NCBI RefSeq assembly: GCF_033097365.1
Contig: NZ_AP028461.1
Location: 1,178,001 to 1,242,000 of the forward strand
Origin: Actinoplanes sichuanensis
Lineage (GTDB): Bacteria; Actinomycetota; Actinomycetes; Mycobacteriales; Micromonosporaceae
Reading direction: 5' to 3'
DNA: 64,000 nt
In this document: positions 2,694 to 46,191 of the stretch, piece after piece
Position numbering within the stretch: the first letter of the stretch is position 1
How the letters are laid out: each line of letters opens with the position of its first letter
Notes under the pieces: generated by a model
Databases searched by the model: none
Seen by the model: the letters and a program-made list of their open reading frames with translations, nothing else
Told to the model about the DNA's origin: nothing
Translations under genes and position numbers: made by a program

Positions 2694-4745
2694 TTAACGA
2701 ACGGTGACGGGCGGGGCCGGTGCCGAGGTCGCGGACCGGGTCGGGCCGGGGGCGCAGGGCAGGGAGAGGACGAAGACCGCGCCGCGCGGCTGACCGGCCT
2801 GGTAGGTGATGGTCGCGCCGGACGCGCCGGCGAGCCGGGCGACCAGGTAGAGGCCGAGGCCGGTGCCGGGTTTGGTGGTGGCGACGCCGGTCTCGGCGCG
2901 GGTGAAGCGTTCGAAGAGATGCGGGATGAACGCGGCGGGTACGCCCTCGCCGTCGTCGGCGACGCGGATCAGGACCCGGTCACGGTCCGGGGTGACGGTG
3001 ACCCGGACCGGCGCCGCGCCGTACTTGACCGCGTTGCCCAGCAGATTGCCCAGCAGCAGGCTCAGATGGGCCGGATCGGCGAACGCGGTCACCTGGTCGG
3101 GCGCGATGACCGTGATCGTCCCGGGTTCGGCGCCCAGCGCCGCGACTGCCTCCCGGACCACGTGGCTCACGTCGAGCCGGGTCGGTCGGGCGGTGAGCGC
3201 ACCCGCGTCGAGTTGCGCCAGCGTCAGGATCTCGGTGACCAGTTCGTCGGCGCGGTGCCCGGCGGTGGTCATCCGGCGCAGGTAGTGCAGGCGGGTGTCG
3301 TCGGGCAGGCCGGACCAGTCGTCGAGCAGCAGCTCACCGGCCGACACGATGGTGGTGAGCGGCTGGCGCACGTCGTGGGTGAGCATCGCCATGAAGTCGG
3401 CCATCTGCTCGTTGGCGTGTTCCAGGCGTTCGGCGTGCCGGGCGAGTTCGGCGGCGTCGCGGCGGCGTTCGTTCTCCAGGGCGTGCCGCTCGGTCATGTC
3501 GATGATCTGGGTGGCGATGTACTGCGGCCGGTCCGCCTCGTCGCGGAGCAGGCTCGCGGTGATCGCGACCTCCACGACACGACCGGCGGCGTGTACGTAT
3601 CTCTTGTCGATGTCGAACCCGTCGACCCGGCCGGTACGGCAGTCGCGGATGTTGCGCAGTGACAGGTCCACGTCGTCGGGGTGGGTGAGGTCGGTGACGT
3701 GGCGGCCGATCATGTCGGTCTGCGGCCGGCCCAGCATGTGGCAGAGCGTCGGATTGACCCGGGCCAGCCGTCCGTCCATGTCGGTCAGCGCCATCCCGAT
3801 CCGCGAGTTGTCGAACACTTTGCGCAGTCGCTGCTCGCTGGAGCGCAGCTCACGACGGTTGCGGCGGGCCCGGGTGGCGGCCGCGACCACGAGTAGGCCG
3901 ACCACCGACGCGGTGACCAGCGCGGCCCGTCCGGCGGCCCGGCTGCCCGATGTGGACGCGAACAGCACGTCCTCGGAGACGGCCGCCGACAACCGCCACG
4001 GGGTGCCCGGAATGTCGCGGTAGGTGTACTGCCACCAGCCGCCGCCGTCCTGGTATCGGCCGGTGGCGGCCCGGTCGAGGGCGGCGTGCAGTCGGGGTTC
4101 CTCGTTGGCGAGCAGGCTCACACCGGTGTGCGGGTGGTTGGCGGCGACGACCGCGCCGGCGTTGTCGACCAGGTGCACCTTCACGCCGTCCAGCGGGATC
4201 GCGGTCGACAGGTAGGACGAGAGCGGGCTGTCGCCGACGGCCACCGCCCCGGAGAACACGCGTCGTCCGTACGGGGTGTCGAACGGCACCGCGAAACCGA
4301 CGACGGGCCGACTTTCGGCGGCCGACGCGACCACCGGGGAGACGGCGGCACGGTCCTCGGTGACCGCGGTGTGCAGGTGCGGGTAGCGGTCGGCGATCTT
4401 CTGGCCGAGCAGTGCCGGGTTCGGCGGGATGACCTGCAGGAGCCGGCCTTCGGCGTCGAGCAGGACTGCGGCCGGATAGCCGAAACCGCCGACCGAGCGC
4501 TTGAAATCGGCCGCGTCCACCGCTGGGGTGCTCAGGAACGCGTGGGCCTGGGTGCCCTGTCTGGTGATCAGGTCGCTGACCATGGCCTTGACGAAGTCGG
4601 CGGCCAGGCCGGCCCGCCAGTCGTAACGCTGGACGACGGCGTTCTTGGTGGTTCGTTCGACCCAGGTCAGGACGCCGGCGCCGACACAGGTGAGTGCGAG
4701 CCAGGCCGCGAGCGGCGCGGCCAGGAAACGCCACCCCATCCGCAT
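2694..4745 (-). CDS. Orphan sensor histidine kinase (dCache-PAS-HisKA-HATPase)
   Basis: This is a 683-residue membrane sensor kinase. TM1 is at about 7-28 and TM2 at about 274-292. Between them is a roughly 240-residue extracytoplasmic region of Cache type. A PAS domain follows (about 303-420), then a short coiled linker, the HisKA H-box L-T-H-D-V-R-Q-P-L (His about 457) and an HATPase domain with an N-box (L-L-G-N-A-V-K-Y-G, about 580) and G-x-G boxes near 625-650. It autophosphorylates on His; the partner is unknown because no response regulator lies nearby. It starts 24 bp after the stop of the soluble Cache gene, so it is probably the third gene of a GntR-Cache-kinase operon that faces an ABC importer. 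It may sense the same ligand outside the cell (inference). Confidence 0.9.
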   Translation of the reverse strand: MRMGWRFLAAPLAAWLALTCVGAGVLTWVERTTKNAVVQRYDWRAGLAADFVKAMVSDLITRQGTQAHAFLSTPAVDAADFKRSVGGFGYPAAVLLDAEGRLLQVIPPNPALLGQKIADRYPHLHTAVTEDRAAVSPVVASAAESRPVVGFAVPFDTPYGRRVFSGAVAVGDSPLSSYLSTAIPLDGVKVHLVDNAGAVVAANHPHTGVSLLANEEPRLHAALDRAATGRYQDGGGWWQYTYRDIPGTPWRLSAAVSEDVLFASTSGSRAAGRAALVTASVVGLLVVAAATRARRNRRELRSSEQRLRKVFDNSRIGMALTDMDGRLARVNPTLCHMLGRPQTDMIGRHVTDLTHPDDVDLSLRNIRDCRTGRVDGFDIDKRYVHAAGRVVEVAITASLLRDEADRPQYIATQIIDMTERHALENERRRDAAELARHAERLEHANEQMADFMAMLTHDVRQPLTTIVSAGELLLDDWSGLPDDTRLHYLRRMTTAGHRADELVTEILTLAQLDAGALTARPTRLDVSHVVREAVAALGAEPGTITVIAPDQVTAFADPAHLSLLLGNLLGNAVKYGAAPVRVTVTPDRDRVLIRVADDGEGVPAAFIPHLFERFTRAETGVATTKPGTGLGLYLVARLAGASGATITYQAGQPRGAVFVLSLPCAPGPTRSATSAPAPPVTVR

Positions 4746-35038: not shown

Positions 35039-37009
35039 GTGGCAGATCCACTGCGCCCCACCGATCCCCGGTCGATAGGCCGTTATCGGACACTGCGCCG
35101 GCTCGGTGCGGGCGGGATGGGATCCGTGTACCTGGCCGAGGACCCGGCCGGGCGGCTCGTCGCGGTCAAGGTCATCCGCCCGGAGTACGCGCACGAGCCC
35201 GAATATCGCGCCCGGTTCCGCAGTGAGGTCAACCGGGCCCGCGAGGTGCCGCCGTTCTGCACAGCCGAGGTGCTCGACGCCGACCCGGATCACGAGACGC
35301 CGTACCTGGTCGTCGAATATGTCGACGGCCCGAGCCTGGACGAGGTCGTCGCCGACCAGGGGCCGCTTGCCGGTGGCAGCCTGCACGGTGTGGCCGTCGG
35401 GGTGGCGGCCGCGCTGGCCGCCATCCATGGCGCCGGTGTCGTCCACCGCGACCTGAAACCGCGCAACGTGCTGTTCGCACTGGGCACGCCGAAGGTGATC
35501 GATTTCGGTATCGCCCGGCCGCTCGACCCGACGAGTTTCCACACCCGCGCGGATCAGGTGGTCGGAACGCTCGCCTACATGGCCCCGGAACGTCTCGACG
35601 TGGAGACCGACCGGCTGCCCACCCCCGCCGTCGACGTGTTCGCCTGGGGCGCGGTCGTCACGTTCGCCGGCACCGGCCGTACCCCGTTCGGCGGCGACAG
35701 CCCGGCGGTGACCGCCGCCCGCATCCTCACCCAGCCGCCACGGGTCGGTGACCTGCCGCCTTATCTGGCCGAACTCGTCGCCGCCGCGCTGGAGAAGGAG
35801 CCGGAGAACCGGCCCACCGCCCCGGAACTCCTCGACCGCCTGCTCGTCACCGGAGCACCGAGCGCGCCACCGCTGCCGGTCGAGTTGCAGCGGTCCGCCG
35901 AGGCCGCCCAGCAGTCCGGCCGGTTCGACACCGGTCCCCGCAAACGCCCGGCCCGCCGCCGGTTGGCGGTGTTCGCGGCCGCCGCGGCGGTCGTCTCGGT
36001 GGCCGTGGCCGGTGGGATCTCCCTACGGCCGACGTCCTCCGAACCGGCACCACCGGCCGCGCCCACGGCGGTCACCGGCCCGGCGGTGTTCGACGCGTTG
36101 CAGACCGACAGTCTCTTCACCACCGCGAAGACCCAGGACGGGCGCTGCGCCTACGCCGGCGGATTGCGGGTGACGGCGACCTCCGACAACGCCATGATGT
36201 GTGGCGAGTATCAGCGGATCGTCTTCCCGCCCAGCCAGAACGTCAGCGTGCGGGCCGTGCTCGGCGACGGGAAGTCCTGTGCCGTGGTCGGTTTCCGGGC
36301 CGAGGGCGAGGAGTTCTTCCCGGACGCCTACCAGGTCGCCGTATGCCCGACCCGGGTGAGCCTGGCCGCGAGTTTCGACGGTGACGAGTCACCGATCGCC
36401 GGTCTGCCCCGGGCCACGAGCAGCGGGACCGAACACCTCATCCAGGTCGTCGTCGGCGAACGGGAAGCCACCGTCAGCATCGACGGCGAGGCCGTCCTGA
36501 CCGGGCCGCTCGATGAGCCTTCGCTGGTCAGTGGCCGGGTGCTGCTCGGCGCGTCCGGCGGCACGGTCACCTACACCGACGCGCAGTTGCGCTCCGGCAC
36601 CGATCCGGCGACACCTCGTACACCCGAATTCCTCACCGGCGACGCCGAACTGGTCGCCGCCATGCACATGGTCTACGACAAGGGCCGGGTCGCGATCGCC
36701 GAACCGGCCGAATATCCGACGGGCGCCGAATACTGCCGGCGGGTCGCGCTGAACTCTCCCAAATGCGACAGCAAGTACGTCCCGGTGGGCAGCGGCCTCC
36801 AGGTCAGCCTGCCGATCGCCGCCCGGCCGAAATACCTCGACTTCCGGCCGAACCAGCGCAAATGCACCGACCCGGCGACACTGGCCGGGACCTGCCAGGT
36901 GAGTTTCAGCGACTTCTCCACCGTCTACGACGAGCCGTCACCGTTTCCGGCCCTGGTCACCATCCGCGGTGGCAAGGTCACGGCGGTCGCCCGGATCAAC
37001 CTCCACTGA
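35039..37009 (+). CDS. Transmembrane Ser/Thr protein kinase (PknB-like)
   Basis: This is a 656-residue protein. The kinase domain (about 12-270) has G-A-G-G-M-G (23-28), catalytic Lys44 in V-A-V-K, H-R-D-L-K-P (Asp137) and D-F-G (154-156). A juxtamembrane linker leads to one membrane helix (about 307-328). The roughly 325-residue external part is not PASTA; it has a lectin/LamG-like beta pattern at about 340-520 and then a Cys-containing C-terminal segment (S-P-K-C, R-K-C-T, G-T-C-Q), so it may bind a surface ligand. GTG 35039 is the start. Kinase-domain similarity to the protein at 54123-55850 is high; the external parts differ. Confidence 0.92.
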   Translation: MADPLRPTDPRSIGRYRTLRRLGAGGMGSVYLAEDPAGRLVAVKVIRPEYAHEPEYRARFRSEVNRAREVPPFCTAEVLDADPDHETPYLVVEYVDGPSLDEVVADQGPLAGGSLHGVAVGVAAALAAIHGAGVVHRDLKPRNVLFALGTPKVIDFGIARPLDPTSFHTRADQVVGTLAYMAPERLDVETDRLPTPAVDVFAWGAVVTFAGTGRTPFGGDSPAVTAARILTQPPRVGDLPPYLAELVAAALEKEPENRPTAPELLDRLLVTGAPSAPPLPVELQRSAEAAQQSGRFDTGPRKRPARRRLAVFAAAAAVVSVAVAGGISLRPTSSEPAPPAAPTAVTGPAVFDALQTDSLFTTAKTQDGRCAYAGGLRVTATSDNAMMCGEYQRIVFPPSQNVSVRAVLGDGKSCAVVGFRAEGEEFFPDAYQVAVCPTRVSLAASFDGDESPIAGLPRATSSGTEHLIQVVVGEREATVSIDGEAVLTGPLDEPSLVSGRVLLGASGGTVTYTDAQLRSGTDPATPRTPEFLTGDAELVAAMHMVYDKGRVAIAEPAEYPTGAEYCRRVALNSPKCDSKYVPVGSGLQVSLPIAARPKYLDFRPNQRKCTDPATLAGTCQVSFSDFSTVYDEPSPFPALVTIRGGKVTAVARINLH

Positions 37010-37103
37010 CCCTGATTTCGCAGGTCAGCGGTGCTCCCGCCGAAAGTGTCATACCCCGGCGATAGCGTTCGCGCATCAGGTTCGGGCAGTGAGGGGAGGC
37101 CGG

Positions 37104-37421
37104 ATGTACCGGCAGGGTGACGTGCTGATCATTCCGGTCGCGGAGACCGAGGTGCCGGCGAGTGCGCCGGTTCCCCGCGACCGCCGGGGCCGGATGGTGC
37201 TGGCCCGGGGCGAGGCGACCGGGCACGCCCACGTCGTCGGCGGGCCGGGGTTGCAACTGGTCGCCGACCTCGACGATCCGGATGCCATGTTCATCGAGGT
37301 GCCGTCGCACGGCCGGGTGACCCACGAGGAGCACGGGCCGATCTCGCTGCCCGCCGGCCACTACCGGGTGGTGCGTCAGCGGGAGTACATCCCGGGCGCT
37401 TTCCGCCCGGTCGCGGACTGA
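37104..37421 (+). CDS. Small hypothetical protein linked to DUF6745 gene
   Basis: This 105-residue protein begins M-Y-R-Q-G-D-V-L-I-I-P-V at ATG 37104, behind GAGGGGAGG. The conserved-looking core G-E-A-T-G-H-A-H-V-V and the C-terminal L-P-A-G-H-Y-R-V-V-R-Q-R-E-Y form a compact beta protein; the His-rich G-H-A-H could bind metal. I associate this small protein with DUF6745 proteins in actinobacteria, and the DUF6745 gene follows after a repeat-filled gap. Function unknown. Confidence 0.75.
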   Translation: MYRQGDVLIIPVAETEVPASAPVPRDRRGRMVLARGEATGHAHVVGGPGLQLVADLDDPDAMFIEVPSHGRVTHEEHGPISLPAGHYRVVRQREYIPGAFRPVAD

Positions 37422-37527
37422 CCTGGCGTTCTGACGAATCGTTCGGTTCCTGGTCCGGCCGCCGTGTGCGGTCGCTGGTTGTGGTTGCCGACTTCAGCCG
37501 TGGGCCTCGGCCGCTGTTTTCGGCCGC

Positions 37528-37672
37528 CAGCTTGGTCGGTTGGTCTCGGACGGCTTGGTCGGTTTCGGTCGCCGGCGTGGTCGGTTGGTTTCGGTCGTTG
37601 GTTCGGTCGCTGTTTCGGTTGTCGGCGTGGTCGGTTGGTTTCGGTCATAGGTTCGGTTACTGGTTACGGCCG
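37528..37672. repeat. Three ~50-bp G/T-rich repeats before the DUF6745 gene
   Basis: Copies starting near 37528, 37573 and 37623 share GGTCGGTTGGTTTCGGTC. The last two are 50 bp apart and align over most of their length. The 283-bp gap between the small gene and the DUF6745 gene contains little else; the DUF6745 ribosome site (AAAGGAGCGGG) follows the array. Confidence 0.8.
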
Positions 37673-37704
37673 CGGGTTTCGGTTGCGGTTGAAAGGAGCG
37701 GGAA

Positions 37705-39099
37705 ATGAAGCTGAGCCACGCCCAGGAGGCGATGGCTGCCGCCATCGAGGACCAATGGTTGGCCGCCGCGGTCCAGACCGGCGATGCGGCACGTGCGGCT
37801 GCCGAAGAGGGGGTACGGGACTCGTATCGCCTGGCCGGACTTGAGGTTCCCGACCGGATCTACTGGTTCGGGTCACCGCGCGCCGGGGCGGTGGCGATGG
37901 CGTTGCTCTCCGGCCGCCTGCCGATTCCCGCAGCGACCCGGCCAACGGTGTCCTCTCCGGACGTCGAGGCGTTCCCTTCGCCGCCGACCGCCGTCGCCGA
38001 AGCATCTCCCGCAGCGGCGCGTCCCGCGTCGGCGGCTACTGATGGTGGAGCGCCTCCCGGTGTGGCGTCTGGCGAGTCGGCGGCGGGTGGAGCGCCTCCC
38101 GCCGCGGCGTCGTCCGAACGGGTGGCCGCTGGTGTCGGGGTGGGCTCCGGATCGTCGGCGGCCGAGGCCGGAGTTCCCGAGTGGGTCGCTGAGGTCTGTG
38201 CTGAGCTGCGGCTTCAGGGCTGGACACCGGGGGAGACCGCCGGCCCGTCGCTGCGGCGGCGAGTGCGGACCGAGCCGTGGGCGGCCGCGCGCAAGGCCGC
38301 CGTGGAAGCGCTCGGTAACGACGGGTGGGCGCAGCTCAGTGCGGCAGCCGGCCGCCGTTCGTGGGGCCTGGTGATGGATCTGATCGCCGGGCGGCTTCGG
38401 TTGCGCCTCGGCGAGGATCTGGCGGCGGCTTTCCCGGGTGACGACAGCCGTGCCGCGCGGATGCCGGTGCTCGACGCGATCTACGGTCAGTACGACGGCC
38501 CCTGGCTGTCCACCTTCGAGGCGGCCGATCGGCTGTGCCCGGAGGCTGGGCTGATGACCGGCCTGGCGGGTCTGGCCGAGGTGGCCCGGCATGCCGGCTG
38601 GTGGTGGGCGAATGAGAAGGTCGCCGTCCTGACCGAGCGCCCGTCGGCGCTGACCCGCGACAATGTCGGCCGGCTGCACCGGGGTGAGGGCGCGGCACTG
38701 GAGTTCCCGGACGGCTATGGCCTCTGGGCCTGGCGCGGCATGCCGATCCCACCCGAACTGGCCTCCGAGTTGCCGACCCTGACCGTCACCCGGATCCGCC
38801 ACGAGAACAACGCCGAGATCCGGCGGGTGATGCTGGAGCACTACGGCTATGACCGCTACCTCCGCGACGCCGGTGCCCGGAAGATGGGTTCCGACGAGAC
38901 GGGCACGTTGTGGTATCTCGATCTCCCCGGCGACGAGCCCCTGGTCATGGTCGAGGTCGTCAATTCCACCCCGGAGCCGGACGGCACGAGCCGTATCTAC
39001 TGGCTGCGAGTCCCGCCTCGCACCAGAAGCGCCCGGGAGGGTGTCGCCTGGACATTCGGCCTGACCGCCGAGGAGTACCAGCCGATGATCCAGACCTGA
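37705..39099 (+). CDS. DUF6745 domain protein with low-complexity segment
   Basis: This is a 464-residue cytosolic protein. Residues about 85-150 form an Ala/Pro/Ser-rich segment (repeated G-G-A-P-P-x-x-A) that splits a helical N-terminus. The C-terminal half has W-W-W-A-N-E-K, G-Y-G-L-W-A-W-R-G-M-P-I-P and I-R-R-V-M-L-E-H-Y-G-Y-D-R-Y, features I associate with DUF6745, which is related to leucine-rich-repeat-associated proteins. It ends V-A-W-T-F-G-L-T-A-E-E-Y. No catalytic site is assigned. ATG 37705 follows GGAGCGGG. Confidence 0.75.
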   Translation: MKLSHAQEAMAAAIEDQWLAAAVQTGDAARAAAEEGVRDSYRLAGLEVPDRIYWFGSPRAGAVAMALLSGRLPIPAATRPTVSSPDVEAFPSPPTAVAEASPAAARPASAATDGGAPPGVASGESAAGGAPPAAASSERVAAGVGVGSGSSAAEAGVPEWVAEVCAELRLQGWTPGETAGPSLRRRVRTEPWAAARKAAVEALGNDGWAQLSAAAGRRSWGLVMDLIAGRLRLRLGEDLAAAFPGDDSRAARMPVLDAIYGQYDGPWLSTFEAADRLCPEAGLMTGLAGLAEVARHAGWWWANEKVAVLTERPSALTRDNVGRLHRGEGAALEFPDGYGLWAWRGMPIPPELASELPTLTVTRIRHENNAEIRRVMLEHYGYDRYLRDAGARKMGSDETGTLWYLDLPGDEPLVMVEVVNSTPEPDGTSRIYWLRVPPRTRSAREGVAWTFGLTAEEYQPMIQT

Positions 39100-39109
39100 C
39101 CGCCCTCGG

Positions 39110-39133
39110 CCCCGACCGGTCATCCGGTCGGGG
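39110..39133. terminator. Bidirectional terminator between DUF6745 and STM4011 genes
   Basis: CCCCGACCGG-TCAT-CCGGTCGGGG is a perfect 10-bp hairpin between two convergent stops (39099 and 39134). Confidence 0.8.
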
Positions 39134-40108
39134 TCAGGGCCAGACTGCGGGGATGCGTTCGAGGAGCCCGTCGGTGTAGACGTCCCGCAGGCCCAGCGGC
39201 TTCAGGTGGACATAGCCGATGTGGCAGTCGCAGAGGGCGTTCGTACAGGAGCGGGGCTGGAGTGCCGCCCGCCACGTGCCGTCGTACAGATTGCCGATCG
39301 GTGTCTTGATGAAGTGGCATCGACGGACCGTGCCGTCACCGAGGACCGAGATCGCGGTCTCACCGGCGTGACACGGCAGGCCGAGCGACGGATGTGGTCG
39401 CACACTGTCGCCGAACCGTGGATCCAGGGCGGTCCACAGCCGTTCCTCCTCGGATGTGTACACGTGCCCCTCGGCGGCGTTGACCCACAGGTAGACCTCG
39501 GGCGGCAGCGCGTCCCGCAACGCCACCGCCTCCGCATGGTGTCCGGGTAGCCCGACCACGCCGACCGAGAAACGAACGCCGAGAGCGAGCAGTTCCCGGC
39601 ATCGGGCCAGGAACCGTTCCCGCGTGACCTGGCCCGGGTGGTAGGTCGCCCACAGCGCCGCCACCCGTGGATCGGCTTCGGCCAGCCAGCCGGTGCGGGC
39701 GGCCAGGTTCGTCTGGATCGCGACCCGGGCCACGTGCGGCAGGTGTGACAGCCGGACGATGGCATCCCGGTACCAGGACCGGGTCAAGCCCTCGCCCCAC
39801 GGCGTGAACAGCACCGACAACCGCCGGTCGGTGGTCGCCTCCACCCAGTCGGCGAAGCGTTCCAGGTCGGCCCGGTCGGCACGCAACAGCTCCGGCGGAT
39901 CCACCCTCTTCGCGAACGGGCAATACGGACAGTCGTAGTTGCAGCTGGCCAGCGGTCCCCGATAGAGGACGTAGAGGTCGTCCCGGCGCTCGTCCAACAC
40001 GGAAAGGCCGTCGGGCACCGCCGGGCGGTCCAGCGCCGGGTGGGCCGGCATCGGGTGGCTCAGCACCGGAAGGAGCGGCCGGCCCGCGGGTTCGAGGTGG
40101 CCGGTCAT
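39134..40108 (-). CDS. STM4011-family radical SAM protein
   Basis: This is a 324-residue protein and the last gene of a five-gene operon. The radical SAM [4Fe-4S] motif C-N-Y-D-C-P-Y-C gives Cys56, Cys60 and Cys63. Further Cys residues near the C-terminus (L-P-C-H-A-G-E, R-R-C-H-F, S-C-T-N-A-L-C-D-C-H) look like a SPASM-type auxiliary cluster site, used by many peptide- or protein-modifying radical SAM enzymes. G-D-G-T-V-R-R-C-H is also typical of SPASM regions. ATG 40108 overlaps the previous stop (ATGA). The family is named from a Salmonella locus; I know of no assigned reaction. Confidence 0.88.
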   Translation of the reverse strand: MTGHLEPAGRPLLPVLSHPMPAHPALDRPAVPDGLSVLDERRDDLYVLYRGPLASCNYDCPYCPFAKRVDPPELLRADRADLERFADWVEATTDRRLSVLFTPWGEGLTRSWYRDAIVRLSHLPHVARVAIQTNLAARTGWLAEADPRVAALWATYHPGQVTRERFLARCRELLALGVRFSVGVVGLPGHHAEAVALRDALPPEVYLWVNAAEGHVYTSEEERLWTALDPRFGDSVRPHPSLGLPCHAGETAISVLGDGTVRRCHFIKTPIGNLYDGTWRAALQPRSCTNALCDCHIGYVHLKPLGLRDVYTDGLLERIPAVWP

Positions 40109-41406
40109 CGTGGTACGTACATTCCCATCGCCTCGCGCACCTCGCCGGAGACCAGCCACGGGCCGATCGCGTCCGAGTGGTCCAGACCGGCCGGGGTGAG
40201 AACCGCCCGGGCGTCGTCCAGCCAGCCACGATCGACCAATTCGCGGAGCTGGGGAAAGTCGCCGGTGTGGTCGGTGCCGAACCGCTCCCGGTAGGCGTTC
40301 GCGTCGACACCCTCGGCCCGTAGCAGGGACTTGAGCAACCACCGGCGCCGCTGCTCGACCTCATCGAGGTGAAAACCGAACTCCGCGTACCGGAAATCGT
40401 CCGCGGGCCGGGAGAGGTAATCGGTGAGAACCGCGCGGACCTCGGGCACCGCCACCGCGTAATCGAACGAGTAGTGCAGGGTCTTCGTGTACGACCGGGC
40501 GCCGCAGCCCAGCCCGACCATGCCGTCGTCCTGGCAGCAGTAGTCGGGACCGTCCGGAACCGGCGCGTCGACCCGGCGGAACTGACGCATCGAATGCCGC
40601 ACATAACCGCTGCTGGTGAGCACGTCGACGGCCTGCCGGTACAGGTCGAGGCGCTGGCGGTCCCAGTCGGCGCGGGCGTGGGCGCGCCGGCCCAGCCCGG
40701 TCAGTGGTCGCACGTACAACGGATACAGGTACAGCTCCTCGGGCCGCCAGCGCAGCGCCTCGTCGAGCGAGTGCTGCCAGGTCTGCGCGGTCTGCCCGTC
40801 GATGCCGTAGATCAGGTCGATGTTGAGAACCGGGATCCGGGCGTCGCGGATCGTCTGAAGCGCGGCCAGCACCTCGTCGAGCCGCTGTGGTCGCCCGGCG
40901 GCACGCGCTTCGGTGTCGAGGAAACTTTGCACGCCGATGCTGATCCGGGTGGTCCCGTGCCCGGCCAGCACCGCCAGCCGATCCGGGGTGGCGGTGGCCG
41001 GTGACGTCTCCACCGACAGCGGAACCGGCCCGGCCCCGAAGACGCCGGTGACGATGTCGAACAGTTCCTCGAGCTCGGCGGCGGTGAGGTAGGTGGGGGT
41101 GCCACCGCCGATCGCCAGGCGGGAGAACGACGCCGCCGGGCCGAGCGATTCACCGACCGCGACCGCCTGCCGGCGCAGTTGGGCGAGGTAGGCGGTGACC
41201 TGCTCGTCGGGTGGGTTGGCTCGGGTGAACAGGTTGCAGAAGCCGCAGCGCATCTCACAGAACGGCAGGTGCACATACCCGAAGAGGGAATCCGGTGGCT
41301 CGTCGGCCCAGACGTCGCGCAGCAGCGGGCGGGGTTCGAGGCGACGGTAGGCGGTCTTGTGCGGATAGGCGTAGAGGTAACCCTGATAGGGGGAGTCGAG
41401 GTTCAC
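40105..41406 (-). CDS. STM4012-family radical SAM protein (HemW-like)
   Basis: This 433-residue protein resembles coproporphyrinogen III dehydrogenase/HemW enzymes. The C-E-M-R-C-G-F-C motif gives Cys50, Cys54 and Cys57, with G-G-G-T-P-T-Y-L and S-V-E-T-S-P as SAM-binding strands and R-I-S-I-G-V-Q-S-F-L as in HemW. The C-terminal HemN-like domain contains G-L-G-C-G-A-R-S-Y. HemW proteins bind heme; whether this one does is unknown. GTG 41406 overlaps the preceding stop (GTGA), and the 3' end overlaps STM4011. Confidence 0.9.
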   Translation of the reverse strand: MNLDSPYQGYLYAYPHKTAYRRLEPRPLLRDVWADEPPDSLFGYVHLPFCEMRCGFCNLFTRANPPDEQVTAYLAQLRRQAVAVGESLGPAASFSRLAIGGGTPTYLTAAELEELFDIVTGVFGAGPVPLSVETSPATATPDRLAVLAGHGTTRISIGVQSFLDTEARAAGRPQRLDEVLAALQTIRDARIPVLNIDLIYGIDGQTAQTWQHSLDEALRWRPEELYLYPLYVRPLTGLGRRAHARADWDRQRLDLYRQAVDVLTSSGYVRHSMRQFRRVDAPVPDGPDYCCQDDGMVGLGCGARSYTKTLHYSFDYAVAVPEVRAVLTDYLSRPADDFRYAEFGFHLDEVEQRRRWLLKSLLRAEGVDANAYRERFGTDHTGDFPQLRELVDRGWLDDARAVLTPAGLDHSDAIGPWLVSGEVREAMGMYVPR

Positions 41407-42200
41407 CGGGCGTCCAGGATGAAGTCGGCATACGGGACCGTCCACACGGACTCGTGGGCGACGCGGTGGCCGGTGTGGCCGTCCTCGCCGTATAGCGTGC
41501 CGTGATCGGAGCAGAGGATCACCTGACAGGGCCGGCCACGCCCGGTGACCAGGGCGAACAGGCGGTCGAGTCGGCCATCGACATACTCCAGGGCGGCCGC
41601 GTGTGTGGTCGGGTCGTCGTCGGTGGCGCCGGGGAGGTAGTGGCGGTTCGGCTGGTGCAGAGCGGCGACGTTGACGAACGTGAACAGTGGCTGCTCCGCC
41701 GGCAGCCCGCCGATGATCGTTTCCAGGCGGTCGATCTGGGCTCCGAGACAGTCCGGCGCGGTCACCCCGAACGCCTCCTCCCAGTGTGCTTCGGCGAACA
41801 GCCCCGGCAACACCCGGCCCAGCGGCGCGGCCGGATTGAAGAACCCGACCCCACCCAGGCAGACCGTGTGATAGCCGGCCGCGGCCAACCCGGTGGGCAG
41901 ATCCGGGGCATCGAAGACGAAGGTGCCGGGACCGCTGGTCTCGCTGCCCCCGAACCGGGCCGCGAACATCCGCTCATGCGGCCCCGGCGTCACCGGCGTC
42001 GGCAGGAACCCGGCGAAGAACGCATGATGCGCGGCGTAGGTGAAACTCGCCGGGGTGTGCCGCCGCTCCCACACCCCACCGGGTAGGACCTTCGCGAGGT
42101 ACGGCGTCCGTCCGCCCGCCAGACACTCCACCGCCACGTCGTAACGCAACGTGTCGAGGGTGACGAACAGCAGGTCATGACTCCCGATCAGCTCACGCAC
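41403..42200 (-). CDS. STM4013/SEN3800-family hydrolase (alkaline-phosphatase superfamily)
   Basis: This is a 265-residue cytosolic protein. V-T-L-D-T-L-R-Y-D near the N-terminus (Asp about 15 and 19) and C-S-D-H-G-T-L-Y-G-E-D-G-H-T-G-H near the C-terminus (about 229-244) supply the Asp/His metal ligands of the alkaline phosphatase/sulfatase fold. A Thr at the nucleophile position is plausible (D-T-L-R-Y-D). N-V-A-A-L-H-Q-P-N-R-H-Y is another conserved block. It probably hydrolyses a phosphate or sulfate ester, or transfers such a group. GTG 42200 overlaps STM4014 by 13 bp. Confidence 0.85.
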   Translation of the reverse strand: MRELIGSHDLLFVTLDTLRYDVAVECLAGGRTPYLAKVLPGGVWERRHTPASFTYAAHHAFFAGFLPTPVTPGPHERMFAARFGGSETSGPGTFVFDAPDLPTGLAAAGYHTVCLGGVGFFNPAAPLGRVLPGLFAEAHWEEAFGVTAPDCLGAQIDRLETIIGGLPAEQPLFTFVNVAALHQPNRHYLPGATDDDPTTHAAALEYVDGRLDRLFALVTGRGRPCQVILCSDHGTLYGEDGHTGHRVAHESVWTVPYADFILDAR

Positions 42201-43390
42201 GGCACACCCACCCCGGCGGCGGTCGCCGCACCGCTCGGCGCCCAGCCGGCCGTGAGGGCGGCGATCTGGGCGCCGTAGGTGTCGAGGCCGTCGGCCAGGA
42301 CTCGGGGGAGCAGGTCGCCGAACGCGTTCACTTCGGCCACCGCGTGTTCGCGCCAGCCGGTGCGGAACATCAGGTCGACGCCGACGTGCAGGGTGCCGGG
42401 AAAGCACGCCGCCGCCCGCGCGCACGTCTCCATCGCCGCAGCCCAGGAGAGGGAGCCGGCGGCCGCCCGGACCGCTGCGACATCGCCGCGTGCGTTGCCG
42501 AGGTGCAGGTTGGTCATGGGGGAGCGGCTGGTCCGGACCACCACATGCCGTGGCCGGCCGGCGATCACCACGACCCGCAGGTCGAGGACCCGATCGTTGA
42601 GGGCCGCTTTCGGGAACCACCGCTCGACGTGCAACCCGTCCGGCCCCAGCCGGTCGACGATCGCCCTGATCGAGGCTTCGTCGGTATAGCGGCGGACCTG
42701 GAGGTTGTTGAAGATCCGGCCGCCACTGAGCTCGACCGAGGTGACCGCGGACAGTCGACGCCCGGCGACCGCGAAGGCGACCACGCCGGACGCCGAGGAA
42801 CCGTGAGCCGGTTTGACGAACACCCGGCTCCACCCGACACCGGCCATCGCGGCGCGCAATGACTCGTAGTCGTGCACCGGCGGCAACGCGGGCGGCACCG
42901 GAATGCCCGCCGCGGCCAGCAGCGCGTGACAGCGCGGCTTGTCGCTCATGGTGAGGATGTCGCCCGGCTGGTTGAGCAGCAGACCGCCACCGGCCACGAC
43001 CCGGTCGAGGGCGACCCGCAGGCCCGCGAACGCCGCCGCGGTCCCGACGATCTCCCCGTGCTCGGCGGCCACCGCCGGTCGCCCGCTGCCGGCCTCCCGC
43101 AACAGTCGGTCGACCTCGGCATCCTCCCCCGGCGACTCGATCCGGACGACCATGCCCGGCCCGGGGACGGCCGCCCCGGCCGAATCGAGAACACCAGCCT
43201 GCCCGGGTGTGGTGTGCCGGGGTGTGGTGTGCCCGGGTGAGGTGCGGTCGGCCGACATGCGCGGTGCGCCGGCCGACAGAACCTCTCGCCACGGGTAGAC
43301 GACCGGGTCGGGAAGGCCCGCCCGGCGGGCGGCCTCGGTGAACAGGGTCACCCGGCGGTTGTCCGGGTTTGCGACGACGGCGAGGCGCAC
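42188..43390 (-). CDS. STM4014-family ATP-grasp-like protein
   Basis: This is a 400-residue protein. The block S-R-V-F-V-K-P-A-H-G-S-S-A-S-G-V (about 187-202) is the ATP-grasp nucleotide-binding lysine region, and A-V-A-E-V-N-A-F-G-D (about 360) is the C-terminal metal-ligand Glu/Asn motif. ATP-grasp enzymes form amide or related bonds by acyl-phosphate activation, so it is the likely ligase of the operon. A local H-T-T-P-R-H-T-T-P-G run (about 55-66) arises from a small GT-rich DNA repeat and is probably dispensable. GTG 43390 shares one base with the STM4015 stop. Confidence 0.85.
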   Translation of the reverse strand: MRLAVVANPDNRRVTLFTEAARRAGLPDPVVYPWREVLSAGAPRMSADRTSPGHTTPRHTTPGQAGVLDSAGAAVPGPGMVVRIESPGEDAEVDRLLREAGSGRPAVAAEHGEIVGTAAAFAGLRVALDRVVAGGGLLLNQPGDILTMSDKPRCHALLAAAGIPVPPALPPVHDYESLRAAMAGVGWSRVFVKPAHGSSASGVVAFAVAGRRLSAVTSVELSGGRIFNNLQVRRYTDEASIRAIVDRLGPDGLHVERWFPKAALNDRVLDLRVVVIAGRPRHVVVRTSRSPMTNLHLGNARGDVAAVRAAAGSLSWAAAMETCARAAACFPGTLHVGVDLMFRTGWREHAVAEVNAFGDLLPRVLADGLDTYGAQIAALTAGWAPSGAATAAGVGVPCVS

Positions 43391-44313
43391 TACTCGGCCA
43401 CCGCCGTGTAGCGGCCCCACTCCTCTTCCTTCTGTGGGTCGGAGACGTCGACCTCGACGCCGGGCAGCTCGTCGACCACCCGCTGCGCCGTCTCGGTCGA
43501 CATGAAGTGGTGACTGAGGTTGAGTCTGCGCAGGTGGGTGAGCGGCTGACCGGCCAGCAGTGTCTCCGCCCCGGCGTCGCCGAGCACACCCAGCGACAGG
43601 TCGAGGTCGGTGACGCGAGCGACGATGGGTGCGGCCGCGACGGCCGCGGCCAGCTCCTCGGCGATCTCGGCGTTACGCAGGCCCAGGTAGGTGAGCGCGG
43701 GCAGGGAGCGGCCGGCCAGGATCGGCGCCAGGTCGTCGGCGCGGGCGTCGCCGCCATACTGATCGACGCCCAGCCACAGCTCCAGGTGGGTCAGATTGGG
43801 CAGGTCGCTGGCGGCGACGGCCCGGACCACGTCGGCGGGCAGACCACCGGACTGGAACACCAGCTCCCGCAGCCCCTCGTGGTGGACCGGCCGCAACTGG
43901 AGGTCCTCGGCGCCACGGATCCACAGGCGCTCCAGGGCCGGGAAGGCCTCGAGCAGCGCAGTGATGTCGCCCTGGTCGATCCAGGAGATCTCGCACTCCT
44001 CACCGGTGAGCTCGCCGATGAACAGCGCCCGCAACCCGCTCAGCCGTGCCGCGTTGTCGATGAGCAGCTGATACGGGAACGGGGTGTCGTAGGCCGACCC
44101 CCACTCGCCGACGATCAGCGCGGTCGGGCCGGCCGGCCCGGTGCGCTGGAGCAGCTGCTCGAAGGCGGCCTCGAACTCCTCCGGCGGCGCCTCGAACTCC
44201 TCCATGCTGATCCGCCAGGCGACCGCGGCCGCATCGGCGACCGTGGCCTCCTCGTCATCGGCCGCGACCACGGGCAGCCCCGCGAATTCGTCCACGTGCT
44301 CGTAAATGCCCAC
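43390..44313 (-). CDS. STM4015-family leucine-rich-repeat protein
   Basis: This 307-residue acidic cytosolic protein has leucine-rich repeats at about 115-285: L-E-R-L-W-I-R, L-R-E-L-V-F-Q, L-T-H-L-E-L-W-L, L-T-Y-L-G-L-R-N-A-E, V-T-D-L-D-L-S-L and L-R-R-L-N-L-S-H. It begins M-G-I-Y-E-H at GTG 44313 behind GGGGAG, and is the first gene of the STM4015-to-4011 operon. LRR proteins are binding scaffolds; here it may hold a substrate or partner for the enzymes that follow (inference). Confidence 0.85.
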   Translation of the reverse strand: MGIYEHVDEFAGLPVVAADDEEATVADAAAVAWRISMEEFEAPPEEFEAAFEQLLQRTGPAGPTALIVGEWGSAYDTPFPYQLLIDNAARLSGLRALFIGELTGEECEISWIDQGDITALLEAFPALERLWIRGAEDLQLRPVHHEGLRELVFQSGGLPADVVRAVAASDLPNLTHLELWLGVDQYGGDARADDLAPILAGRSLPALTYLGLRNAEIAEELAAAVAAAPIVARVTDLDLSLGVLGDAGAETLLAGQPLTHLRRLNLSHHFMSTETAQRVVDELPGVEVDVSDPQKEEEWGRYTAVAE

Positions 44314-44410
44314 AGGACTCCCCTAGCCCGTAATCGACGCTCACCGGAACAGTGCCGAGAACCTAGCAGCCCCCACCGACACTTTCGCGCCGCGCGTAAC
44401 CCTCGCGGGC

Positions 44411-44430
44411 GACCCGCTGCTCAGCGGGTC
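44411..44430. terminator. Hairpin between the symporter and STM4015 genes
   Basis: GACCCGCTGCTCAGCGGGTC is a perfect dyad (8-bp stem, 4-nt loop). It lies downstream of the symporter stop (44524, leftward gene) and upstream of the STM4015 start, so it probably ends the symporter transcript. Confidence 0.55.
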
Positions 44431-44435
44431 GGGTC

Positions 44436-44491
44436 GATCGGACGCCCGCGATCGGACGCCCGCGATCGGACGCCCGCGATCGGACGCCCGC
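44436..44491. repeat. Four perfect 14-bp tandem repeats
   Basis: GATCGGACGCCCGC is repeated four times without change (44436, 44450, 44464, 44478) between the symporter gene and the STM4015 operon. Perfect identity suggests recent duplication or selection as a binding array. Confidence 0.9.
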
Positions 44492-44523
44492 GACCGGGGT
44501 CCGCGGGCGCGCCGGCTTCCTCG

Positions 44524-46191
44524 TCACGGGACGCGCTGCTCGGGCATGTGATGCGGTGGATACGGTGCCGAGATCGGTCGGCCGCCGGATCCGCCGGTGG
44601 GTAGGCCGTCGATCAGCTCGTCGAGACGTTTCAGGTAGGGGTCGCCGGCGTCGGCGTGGTAGTCGTCGGGGCGGGTGCGGTCGTCGCCGTCGCGGACTCC
44701 GGCCGCTCGCACGAGCAGGGTGAGCACGACGGTGACGAGCAGGTTGACGGCGAGAGCGACGACGCCGACGTAGATGCTCCGGCCGTCGCCGAGCGACCAG
44801 CTGGAGCCGCCGAAATGTTCGGCCACGACCCTGCCGGTGGCGTCGAGTTTCGGGATGTCCCAGAGCATCACCAGACCGGTCACCAGGCCGCTGATCAGGC
44901 CGGCGGTGAGCGCGGCCCGATGGAACCACGGGGTGAGCAGGCCGAGGAAGACCGCCGGGATGGTCTGCAGGATCAGCACGCCGCCGATCAGCTGCAGGTC
45001 GACGGAGAACGCCGGATCCACGGCGAGGATCAGGGCGGCCGCGCCGAACTTGACGACCAGGGACACCCACCGGCTGGTCCACGCCTCGGCCTCGGGGGTG
45101 GCGTTCGGTCGCAGGTAGGTGCGGTAGAGGCTGCGGGTGAACGCGTTGGCCGCGGCGATCGACATGACGGCGGCCGGGATCAGGGCGGCGATGCTCAGCG
45201 CGGCGTACGCGACCCCCGCCGACCAGCTGGGGAAGTACTCGTGGATCAGCCGTGGCACGACGGTGTTGAGGTCGCCGTCAGCCGGTGTCACGCCTCGGGC
45301 CAGTGCGAAGACGCCGAGCATGGCCATCAGGCCCAGCGCCATGCAGTAGACCGGCAGCGCCGCGGCGTTTCGGCGGACCGTGTCGCGGTCTTTGGCGGCG
45401 AGCATCCCGACCAGGGCGTGTGGGTAGGCGAAGATGGCCAGGGCCGACCCGATCACCAGGGTCAGGAAGCCCAGGTGGCCGGTTTCCGGCAGCAGCAGCC
45501 CGTCGGCCGGGTTGGGAGTGGCGGCGAACCGGGTCGCGGCACCGCGGAAGGCGCTGCCCCATCCGCCGTACATGGCCACCATCAGCGCCGCGGTGATCAG
45601 CATCCAGCCGAGCAGCACGTCCTTGACCACCGACAGCAGGGCGGGTGCGCGCAGCCCGGACCGGAACGTGCAGATCGACACGAGCGTCACCGCGGCCAGC
45701 AACGGCCACTCGCCCCCGAACCCGACGGTCCGCAGCACCGCCTGCAACGAGATGAGCTGCACCGCGACATAGGGGATCGTCGCCAGGATCCCGGTGACGG
45801 CGACCAGCGCCCCGAGCCCCGGTGAGCCGAATCGGGCGGCCGCGAACTCGCTGTGGGTGAGGAAGCCGTGCCGTCGCGCCACCGACCACGCCCGAGTGGT
45901 GAAGATGAAGGTCAGGGGCGTGGTGACGATCGCGAACGGCACGGCGAACCACCCGATCGCACCGACGCCGTAGGTGAGCGCCGGGACGGCGATGAACGTG
46001 TACGCGCTATACATGCTCCCGCCGAGCAGGAACCAGATCGTCCAGTTGCCGAACGCCCGCCCGCCGACACTCCACTCCTCGAGGTGGTAGGGGTCGGCGG
46101 GCCGGCGCCAGCGGGCGGCACCGAAGCCGAGCAGCACGACGCCCGTCATCAGGACCAGGAAGACGCCGACCTCGACGTCTCGATCGGTCAC
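44524..46191 (-). CDS. Sodium:solute symporter (SSS family)
   Basis: This 555-residue protein has about 13 membrane helices. G-N-W-T-I-W-F-L-L-G-G-S-M-Y-S-A-Y-T-F near the N-terminus and the central R-S-G-L-R-A-P-A-L-L-S-V-V-K-D-V-L-L-G-W are SSS landmarks, with sodium-site small residues in the first of these. SSS proteins partnered with a DUF3311 protein often import organic acids or related metabolites; the substrate is unknown here. GTG 46191 overlaps the DUF3311 stop (GTGA). The C-terminal 70 residues are a soluble tail with D-D-Y-H-A-D-A-G-D. Confidence 0.92.
   Translation of the reverse strand: MTDRDVEVGVFLVLMTGVVLLGFGAARWRRPADPYHLEEWSVGGRAFGNWTIWFLLGGSMYSAYTFIAVPALTYGVGAIGWFAVPFAIVTTPLTFIFTTRAWSVARRHGFLTHSEFAAARFGSPGLGALVAVTGILATIPYVAVQLISLQAVLRTVGFGGEWPLLAAVTLVSICTFRSGLRAPALLSVVKDVLLGWMLITAALMVAMYGGWGSAFRGAATRFAATPNPADGLLLPETGHLGFLTLVIGSALAIFAYPHALVGMLAAKDRDTVRRNAAALPVYCMALGLMAMLGVFALARGVTPADGDLNTVVPRLIHEYFPSWSAGVAYAALSIAALIPAAVMSIAAANAFTRSLYRTYLRPNATPEAEAWTSRWVSLVVKFGAAALILAVDPAFSVDLQLIGGVLILQTIPAVFLGLLTPWFHRAALTAGLISGLVTGLVMLWDIPKLDATGRVVAEHFGGSSWSLGDGRSIYVGVVALAVNLLVTVVLTLLVRAAGVRDGDDRTRPDDYHADAGDPYLKRLDELIDGLPTGGSGGRPISAPYPPHHMPEQRVP

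Follow-up and report, generated by a model that had tools for sequence, protein, structure and literature searches.

The STM4011-STM4015 gene set of Actinoplanes sichuanensis: a leucine-rich-repeat protein with a conserved terminal Glu as a possible carrier or substrate of its four partner enzymes

What is made or modified by the protein families that are named after the Salmonella loci STM4011 to STM4015? This question is raised by a five-gene operon of Actinoplanes sichuanensis, which lies within a 64,000-nucleotide stretch of contig NZ_AP028461.1 (positions 1,178,001 to 1,242,000, hereafter the window; the source genome is a single 12.14-Mb contig). In agreement with the original prediction made from this DNA, no function for STM4011-STM4015 was found in openly licensed full-text literature searched by family names, combined terms, and Salmonella Enteritidis tags. 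The NCBIfam models of the five families (three hypoth_equivalog, one subfamily, and one equivalog) carry names without function. A sigma54 study lists a site at STM4013.S, and a selection study counts STM4015 among its genes; no other mention of the five Salmonella loci was found in openly licensed full text.

The genes lie on the minus strand in the order 4015-4014-4013-4012-4011 and, as had been described, run leftward from 44313 to 39134 with overlaps of 1 to 13 bp. All five products exceed the curated NCBIfam cut-offs in a profile search, which confirms their assignment to the STM4011-STM4015 families, and the closest STM4014 proteins carry Actinoplanes names. Because the content and order of the operon are kept in other species and phyla, and because its active-site columns are conserved, it is not a chance assembly. 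The family scores and the conserved columns also bear out the predicted combination of two radical SAM (S-adenosylmethionine) proteins, an ATP-dependent ligase, and an ester hydrolase.

The answer that we propose, and to which we give about an even chance, is that the leucine-rich-repeat (LRR) protein STM4015 serves as a covalent carrier or as a protein substrate, at the C-terminus of which a group is attached and processed by the products of the other four genes. The direct basis of this proposal comprises the conserved terminal Glu of STM4015, the fold class of the ligase, the catalytic residues, the co-inheritance of the genes, and the pairing of 4014 with 4015; the reaction chemistry is what we infer from them. 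STM4014 would activate the C-terminal Glu of STM4015 and join an amine-bearing building block to it, and STM4012 and STM4011 would then alter what has been attached, with the LRR body and the acidic tail as their recognition elements. STM4013, together with a haloacid dehalogenase (HAD) phosphatase where one is present, would take phosphate off the building block before or after loading. The product might either be released, as in the LysW and pearlin pathways, or be kept on the LRR protein as a modification.

Glu is the last residue in 110 of the 111 complete STM4015 sequences that were extracted from the loci described below, and the sole exception (L051) is a family match in two pieces with unrelated sequence at its end. 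Since the tails otherwise differ in detail (RYTAVAE in the window, MNAMYTE in Salmonella, and WYYPMITE in Bacteroides), the terminal Glu is their common feature. The commonest last residue of the other operon proteins occurs in 19/82 (STM4011), 55/88 (STM4012), 35/91 (STM4013), and 26/81 (STM4014) sequences. A search with the Bacteroides protein gave a terminal Glu in 100 of 120 proteins among the matches listed; 19 of the other 20 are fragments or chimeras short of the tail, and one (P0193) reaches the tail and ends in Asn. Between the LRR body and the tail lies an acidic linker of variable length, with a mean net charge of about -4.7 over about 14.5 residues. The alignment used for the linker and for identities shows a terminal Glu in 100% of its members partly by construction, as L051 and Bacteroidota proteins that lacked the terminal Glu or had 270 aa or fewer were dropped beforehand; the counts used here are therefore 110/111 and 100/120.

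STM4015 is also seen in extra copies: more than one copy lies in 21 of 72 complete loci, five stand in tandem in one genome (G341), and the terminal Glu is kept in all five distant extra copies that were examined. A second, distant STM4015 gene with this residue is present in the window's own genome (G000) at 3.64 Mb (L122:8059-8967). No neighbourhood shared by the distant copies was recognisable by eye at five loci. The paralogues have a median whole-protein identity of 55% over 27 pairs, and residues of the LRR body, such as E108, S110, and W111, are nearly invariant in the family. STM4015 is homologous to a Bacteroides fragilis protein of solved structure, 2ra8 (E 4e-35), whose close relative P0216 ends in YPMITE. 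According to Pfam annotation, many Bacteroidota relatives (P0126-P0245) have a WGR domain in addition to their LRR part.

LRR proteins usually bind partners, and STM4015 might thus be an adaptor that brings the enzymes to another macromolecule, in which case its tail would be a docking signal and the modified substrate would be found elsewhere in the cell. The extra WGR domain, the nearly invariant body residues, and the divergence of the extra copies, which would suit different targets, are consistent with such a role. However, a docking tail of varying sequence would not be expected to require a terminal Glu absolutely, and STM4014 belongs to a type of ligase for which a C-terminal Glu is the target; we regard the adaptor as unlikely. 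Given the conserved C-terminal Glu, the additional copies, and the relationship of STM4014 to LysX, ArgX, and RimK, STM4015 is more likely to be a substrate or carrier, and so the thing acted on, than the scaffold that the original prediction saw in it. The accompanying remark that no precursor is visible nearby may have missed that the LRR protein itself could be the precursor.

With regard to the ligase, a structural model suggests that STM4014 is an ATP-grasp enzyme of the RimK/LysX/ArgX kind. In the VIA fold comparison, ranks 1 to 8 were taken by the RimK/LysX/ArgX group, with ArgX, LysX, and RimK as the best matches. LysX/ArgX and RimK ligases act on the C-terminal Glu of LysW or S6. The residues that we take to be those for ATP and metal are strongly conserved (K193 in 80/81 with one gap, D339 in 81/81, E353 in 80/81 with one Asp, and N355 in 81/81). 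STM4014 falls far below the curated cut-off of the RimK family TIGR00768 (25 bits vs. 143.4).

Foldseek with the same model placed PsnB, a graspetide ligase that acts with a precursor, at the top rank. This result fits a scheme akin to that of ribosomally synthesised and post-translationally modified peptides (RiPPs), in which STM4014 would crosslink the tail of STM4015 through its side chains and residues of the tail would be modified by the radical SAM enzymes, with no block brought in from outside. SPASM-like radical SAM enzymes often modify peptides, and an Arg-aromatic pair recurs in the Actinomycetota tails (Arg at -7 in 101/111 and Tyr or Phe at -6 in 106/111). Yet no tail residue besides the terminal Glu is common to all phyla, as the Salmonella and Bacteroides tails given above illustrate, and the phosphatases would be left without a role, so that such tail chemistry appears improbable.

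Some points weigh against a carrier or substrate role of STM4015. The margin of the RimK/LysX/ArgX group over glutathione synthetase in the VIA comparison was 0.6 to 2.4 Z and is thus not exclusive; no releasing enzyme is conserved with the set; and conserved ends are also found in two accessory proteins described below, namely DUF6745 (Thr, 52/54) and its small partner (Asp, 54/55). The proposal is held at even chances because its chemistry is inferred, because a conserved releasing enzyme is lacking, and because the ligase assignment is narrow. STM4014 might instead work like glutathione synthetase on a free substrate in an ordinary small-molecule or cofactor pathway, the LRR protein then serving in regulation or assembly. 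We consider this quite improbable, as it leaves unexplained the co-inheritance of STM4015 (15/15 genomes, none without), its extra copies, and its terminal Glu.

Of the two radical SAM proteins, STM4011 contains the CX3CX2C triad and five more Cys, all eight of which are conserved in 82/82 sequences each; the Pfam SPASM model remained sub-threshold on it (13.6 bits vs. a cut-off of 21.5). In STM4012, CX3CX2C is present in 85/88 sequences (three have gaps). Its relatives by sequence are HemN (1olt) and the radical SAM methyltransferase NocN (9p2u), and it stays under the curated cut-offs of HemW, HemN, and HutW (122 vs. 205.4, 122.4 vs. 324.95, and 125 vs. 400 bits, respectively).

In STM4013, Asp16, Thr54, His182, Asp232, His233, His245, and His249 are conserved in 88 to 91 of 91 sequences, with Thr54 and Asp16 in all 91. 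Thr54 presumably occupies the nucleophile position, an assignment made by alignment to the sulfatase motif, not from a solved structure; the Cys or Ser of formylglycine sulfatases was found in none of the 91 sequences. The predicted phosphate- or sulfate-ester step is supported as ester hydrolysis, and because of the Thr at the nucleophile position and the conserved metal-ligand set, phosphate seems, on sequence grounds, more likely than sulfate. The activation of a sulfatase by STM4011 through formylglycine formation was also considered and is not favoured, as STM4013 has Thr, not Cys or Ser. A second phosphatase is found in other lineages: in Salmonella, a separate HAD-IIB phosphatase gene overlaps STM4011, and in Bacteroidota relatives, a HAD phosphatase is fused to STM4011. 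The corresponding domain, PF08282, is present in 107 of 120 relatives among the matches listed, a sample that is biased because the Bacteroides STM4011 query itself contains the domain and that consists mostly of Bacteroidota or metagenome proteins, with one from Inediibacterium. This second phosphatase in Salmonella and Bacteroidota supports a phosphorylated intermediate.

The original prediction of one co-inherited system was put to a genome survey, and the STM4011-STM4015 set behaves as one. Among 148 genomes drawn from the class, STM4011, STM4013, STM4014, and STM4015 co-occur in the same 15, and none of the 133 others has any of them; linkage of STM4012 is known from the loci only. At least 574 stretches with a STM4013 relative were found in a collection with one genome per species, and the 80 best STM4013 matches, mostly from Actinomycetota, were analysed as loci, so that the following counts are conditional on STM4013. 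Gene order was read from tblastn segments, as counting by whole open reading frames (ORFs) was dropped because long overlapping ORFs displaced genes. All five genes are present in 72/80 loci and the window order in 70/80, the two rearranged complete loci being myxobacterial (4013-4012-4011 against 4014-4015). Of the other eight loci, two run off the end of a contig, four are missing 4014, and in two STM4013 is the only gene of the set. The five-gene order is common to annotated records from Salmonella, Deinococcus, Paenibacillus, and Methylobacterium. In a plasmid record of Bacteroides finegoldii (L120:8947-9313), STM4013 is truncated and STM4012 is reduced to its end; the reading frames of 4015, 4014, and the 4011-HAD fusion are open in the same record.

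In four of four Actinoplanes genomes without a linked 4014, the STM4014 gene lies elsewhere in the genome, and it adjoins a second 4015 gene in the three places that were fetched, two of which also have DUF6745. Where the cluster is split, 4014 thus adjoins 4015, which suggests two units, one made up of 4015 and 4014 and the other of 4013-4012-4011. In the two genomes where STM4013 stands by itself, no STM4014 match was obtained at E 1e-10.

The LysW domain is small and zinc-binding, and no such domain was found in STM4015, the body of which is LRR (NF038076, Pfam LRR matches, and homology to 2ra8). The C-terminal Glu after an acidic extension, which marks amino-group carriers, is present in STM4015, as the residue counts and linker charge given above attest. 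LysW with LysX/ArgX (PMC9303977) offers a close likeness, as it is a globular protein with an acidic C-terminal extension, a C-terminal Glu, and a partner ligase of the LysX/ArgX fold; however, the putative carrier here is an LRR protein with a length of about 300 aa, processing would fall to radical SAM proteins and a phosphatase, and LysW-pathway enzymes were not seen as conserved neighbours of the STM loci. RimK with ribosomal protein S6 (PMC4431377) resembles the set in its ATP-grasp ligase and in having a protein C-terminus, here the proposed one, as acceptor; it differs in target and in lacking the radical SAM steps, and STM4014 is distant from RimK by score. The pearlin pathways (PMC9303977) share the proposed logic, in which a block is added at the carrier C-terminus and then modified, radical SAM enzymes included, whereas loading here would be performed by an ATP-grasp enzyme instead of a PEARL that depends on tRNA, a large LRR protein would be the carrier, and the cluster contains no protease. 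No PEARL is found among the five operon proteins, the window beyond the near neighbours not having been annotated gene by gene. Because both the LysW domain and a PEARL are absent from the operon, the set belongs to neither the LysW nor the pearlin family. Graspetide ligases are likened to the set by the top Foldseek rank of PsnB for the STM4014 model, but no short precursor peptide was found here, and the neighbour of the ligase is a LRR protein.

A bolder form of the carrier proposal, which we put forward only tentatively and consider doubtful, is that the LRR protein plays the part of LysW, in what would be a class of carrier-protein chemistry not yet described. A LysX-like ligase would load a phosphorylated amine-bearing block, and the two radical SAM enzymes and phosphatases would convert it into either a prosthetic group that stays on permanently or a novel small molecule, with LRR carriers of different bodies and one tail chemistry in at least six phyla.

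The coordinates of the operon and its neighbours are collected in Table 1. A conserved sixth gene, which had been envisaged, exists in part, given the HAD phosphatase of Salmonella and Bacteroidota relatives and two genes on the opposite strand beside the operon that had been overlooked. DUF6745 lies in the flanks of 51/72 complete loci (upstream in 24 and downstream in 27), and a gene of about 105 aa lies beside it in 49/72. In the class sample, DUF6745 matches above 300 bits occur in seven genomes, all among the 15 operon carriers and all near the operon; weaker matches occur in other genomes of the sample. DUF6745 with its small partner is also seen without the STM operon in four loci (L138, L139, L140, and L141), the neighbourhoods of which differ. 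A fold search with DUF6745 gave no match, and no mention of the family was found in openly licensed full-text literature. The small protein at 37104-37421 has no Pfam or NCBIfam match, and a longer ORF (36969-37421) has no Pfam match.

Table 1. Features of the operon and its flank, in window coordinates
Feature	Position	Strand	Details
STM4015 family leucine-rich-repeat protein, proposed carrier/substrate	43390..44313	-	GTG start, 307 aa; NF038076 361 bits, cut-off 275; homologue of solved 2ra8
STM4014 family ATP-grasp ligase	42188..43390	-	GTG start, 400 aa; 1 bp overlap with STM4015; NF038074 420 bits, cut-off 175
STM4013 family alkaline-phosphatase-superfamily hydrolase	41403..42200	-	GTG start, 265 aa; 13 bp overlap with STM4014; NF038075 396 bits, cut-off 250; PF00884 32.8 bits
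STM4012 family HemN-like radical SAM protein	40105..41406	-	GTG start, 433 aa; 4 bp overlap with STM4013; NF006067 601 bits, cut-off 380; PF04055 and weak HemN_C
STM4011 family radical SAM protein, SPASM-like, five further conserved Cys	39134..40108	-	ATG start, 324 aa; 4 bp overlap with STM4012; NF038073 388 bits, cut-off 200
Last seven STM4015 codons (RYTAVAE), conserved C-terminal Glu at end, after acidic linker	43393..43413	-	terminal Glu 110/111; linker length and charge
DUF6745 protein, accessory neighbour, convergent	37705..39099	+	464 aa; PF20530 312 bits; flanks 51/72 complete loci
Small protein paired with DUF6745	37104..37421	+	105 aa; present in 49/72 complete loci

All-against-all clustering of the ORFs in the loci gave no other conserved genes: none of the further families reaches more than 18 loci, their distances are scattered, transporters, peptidases, and regulators are not prominent among them, and many clustered ORFs are antisense ORFs of high-GC DNA. 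Groups of 8 to 10 loci in clade-like positions are read as ordinary synteny. A search for anti-phage defence with PADLOC gave no match for four operon proteins and a partial one for STM4012 (27.6 bits over 80 residues), and this function was set aside. A 14-bp tandem repeat of 4.5 copies lies at 44435-44497, between the end of a symporter ORF and the start of the operon. Rfam gave no match within window positions 30000-52000, and no promoter-like sites were found within 36900-44700.

Several relatives were seen outside the complete operon. The two lone STM4013 genes (L070:9914-10861 and L072:10001-10843) are well conserved, at about 70% identity to the window protein, and lie between unrelated genes, one resembling a short-chain dehydrogenase gene and the other that of a small monooxygenase. 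Another type of STM4013 relative occurs outside the operon in Streptomyces-like genomes (L031:447-3838, L137:6816-9774, and L119:7744-9315); in L031 and L137 it comes after genes for a MoaA-like radical SAM protein and a protein like thymidylate kinase, and in L031 and L119 a Nudix gene follows it. A weak STM4013-like sulfatase-family protein, about 26% identical, is present in ten Agrobacterium plasmid records (H16-H25). In a Salmonella Senftenberg record named plasmid 3 (L115), the operon is surrounded by chromosome-like typA, glnA, glnL, and glnG, which is perhaps a matter of assembly. No near match to the Salmonella operon was found in E. coli genomes. Three records of a phage collection match, two of which are unannotated short records, and these matches are read as host DNA.

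The set is widespread, as the number of stretches with a STM4013 relative indicates, and includes Salmonella and relatives in human-gut Bacteroides. The predicted covalent site is the last residue of STM4015, which reduces the open question to one mass-spectrometry experiment. If the proposal is true, LRR proteins would join the few kinds of proteins that serve as covalent carriers in biosynthesis or as targets of C-terminal ligation, two radical SAM families would gain a substrate, and the set would represent a new mode of molecule assembly on carrier proteins.

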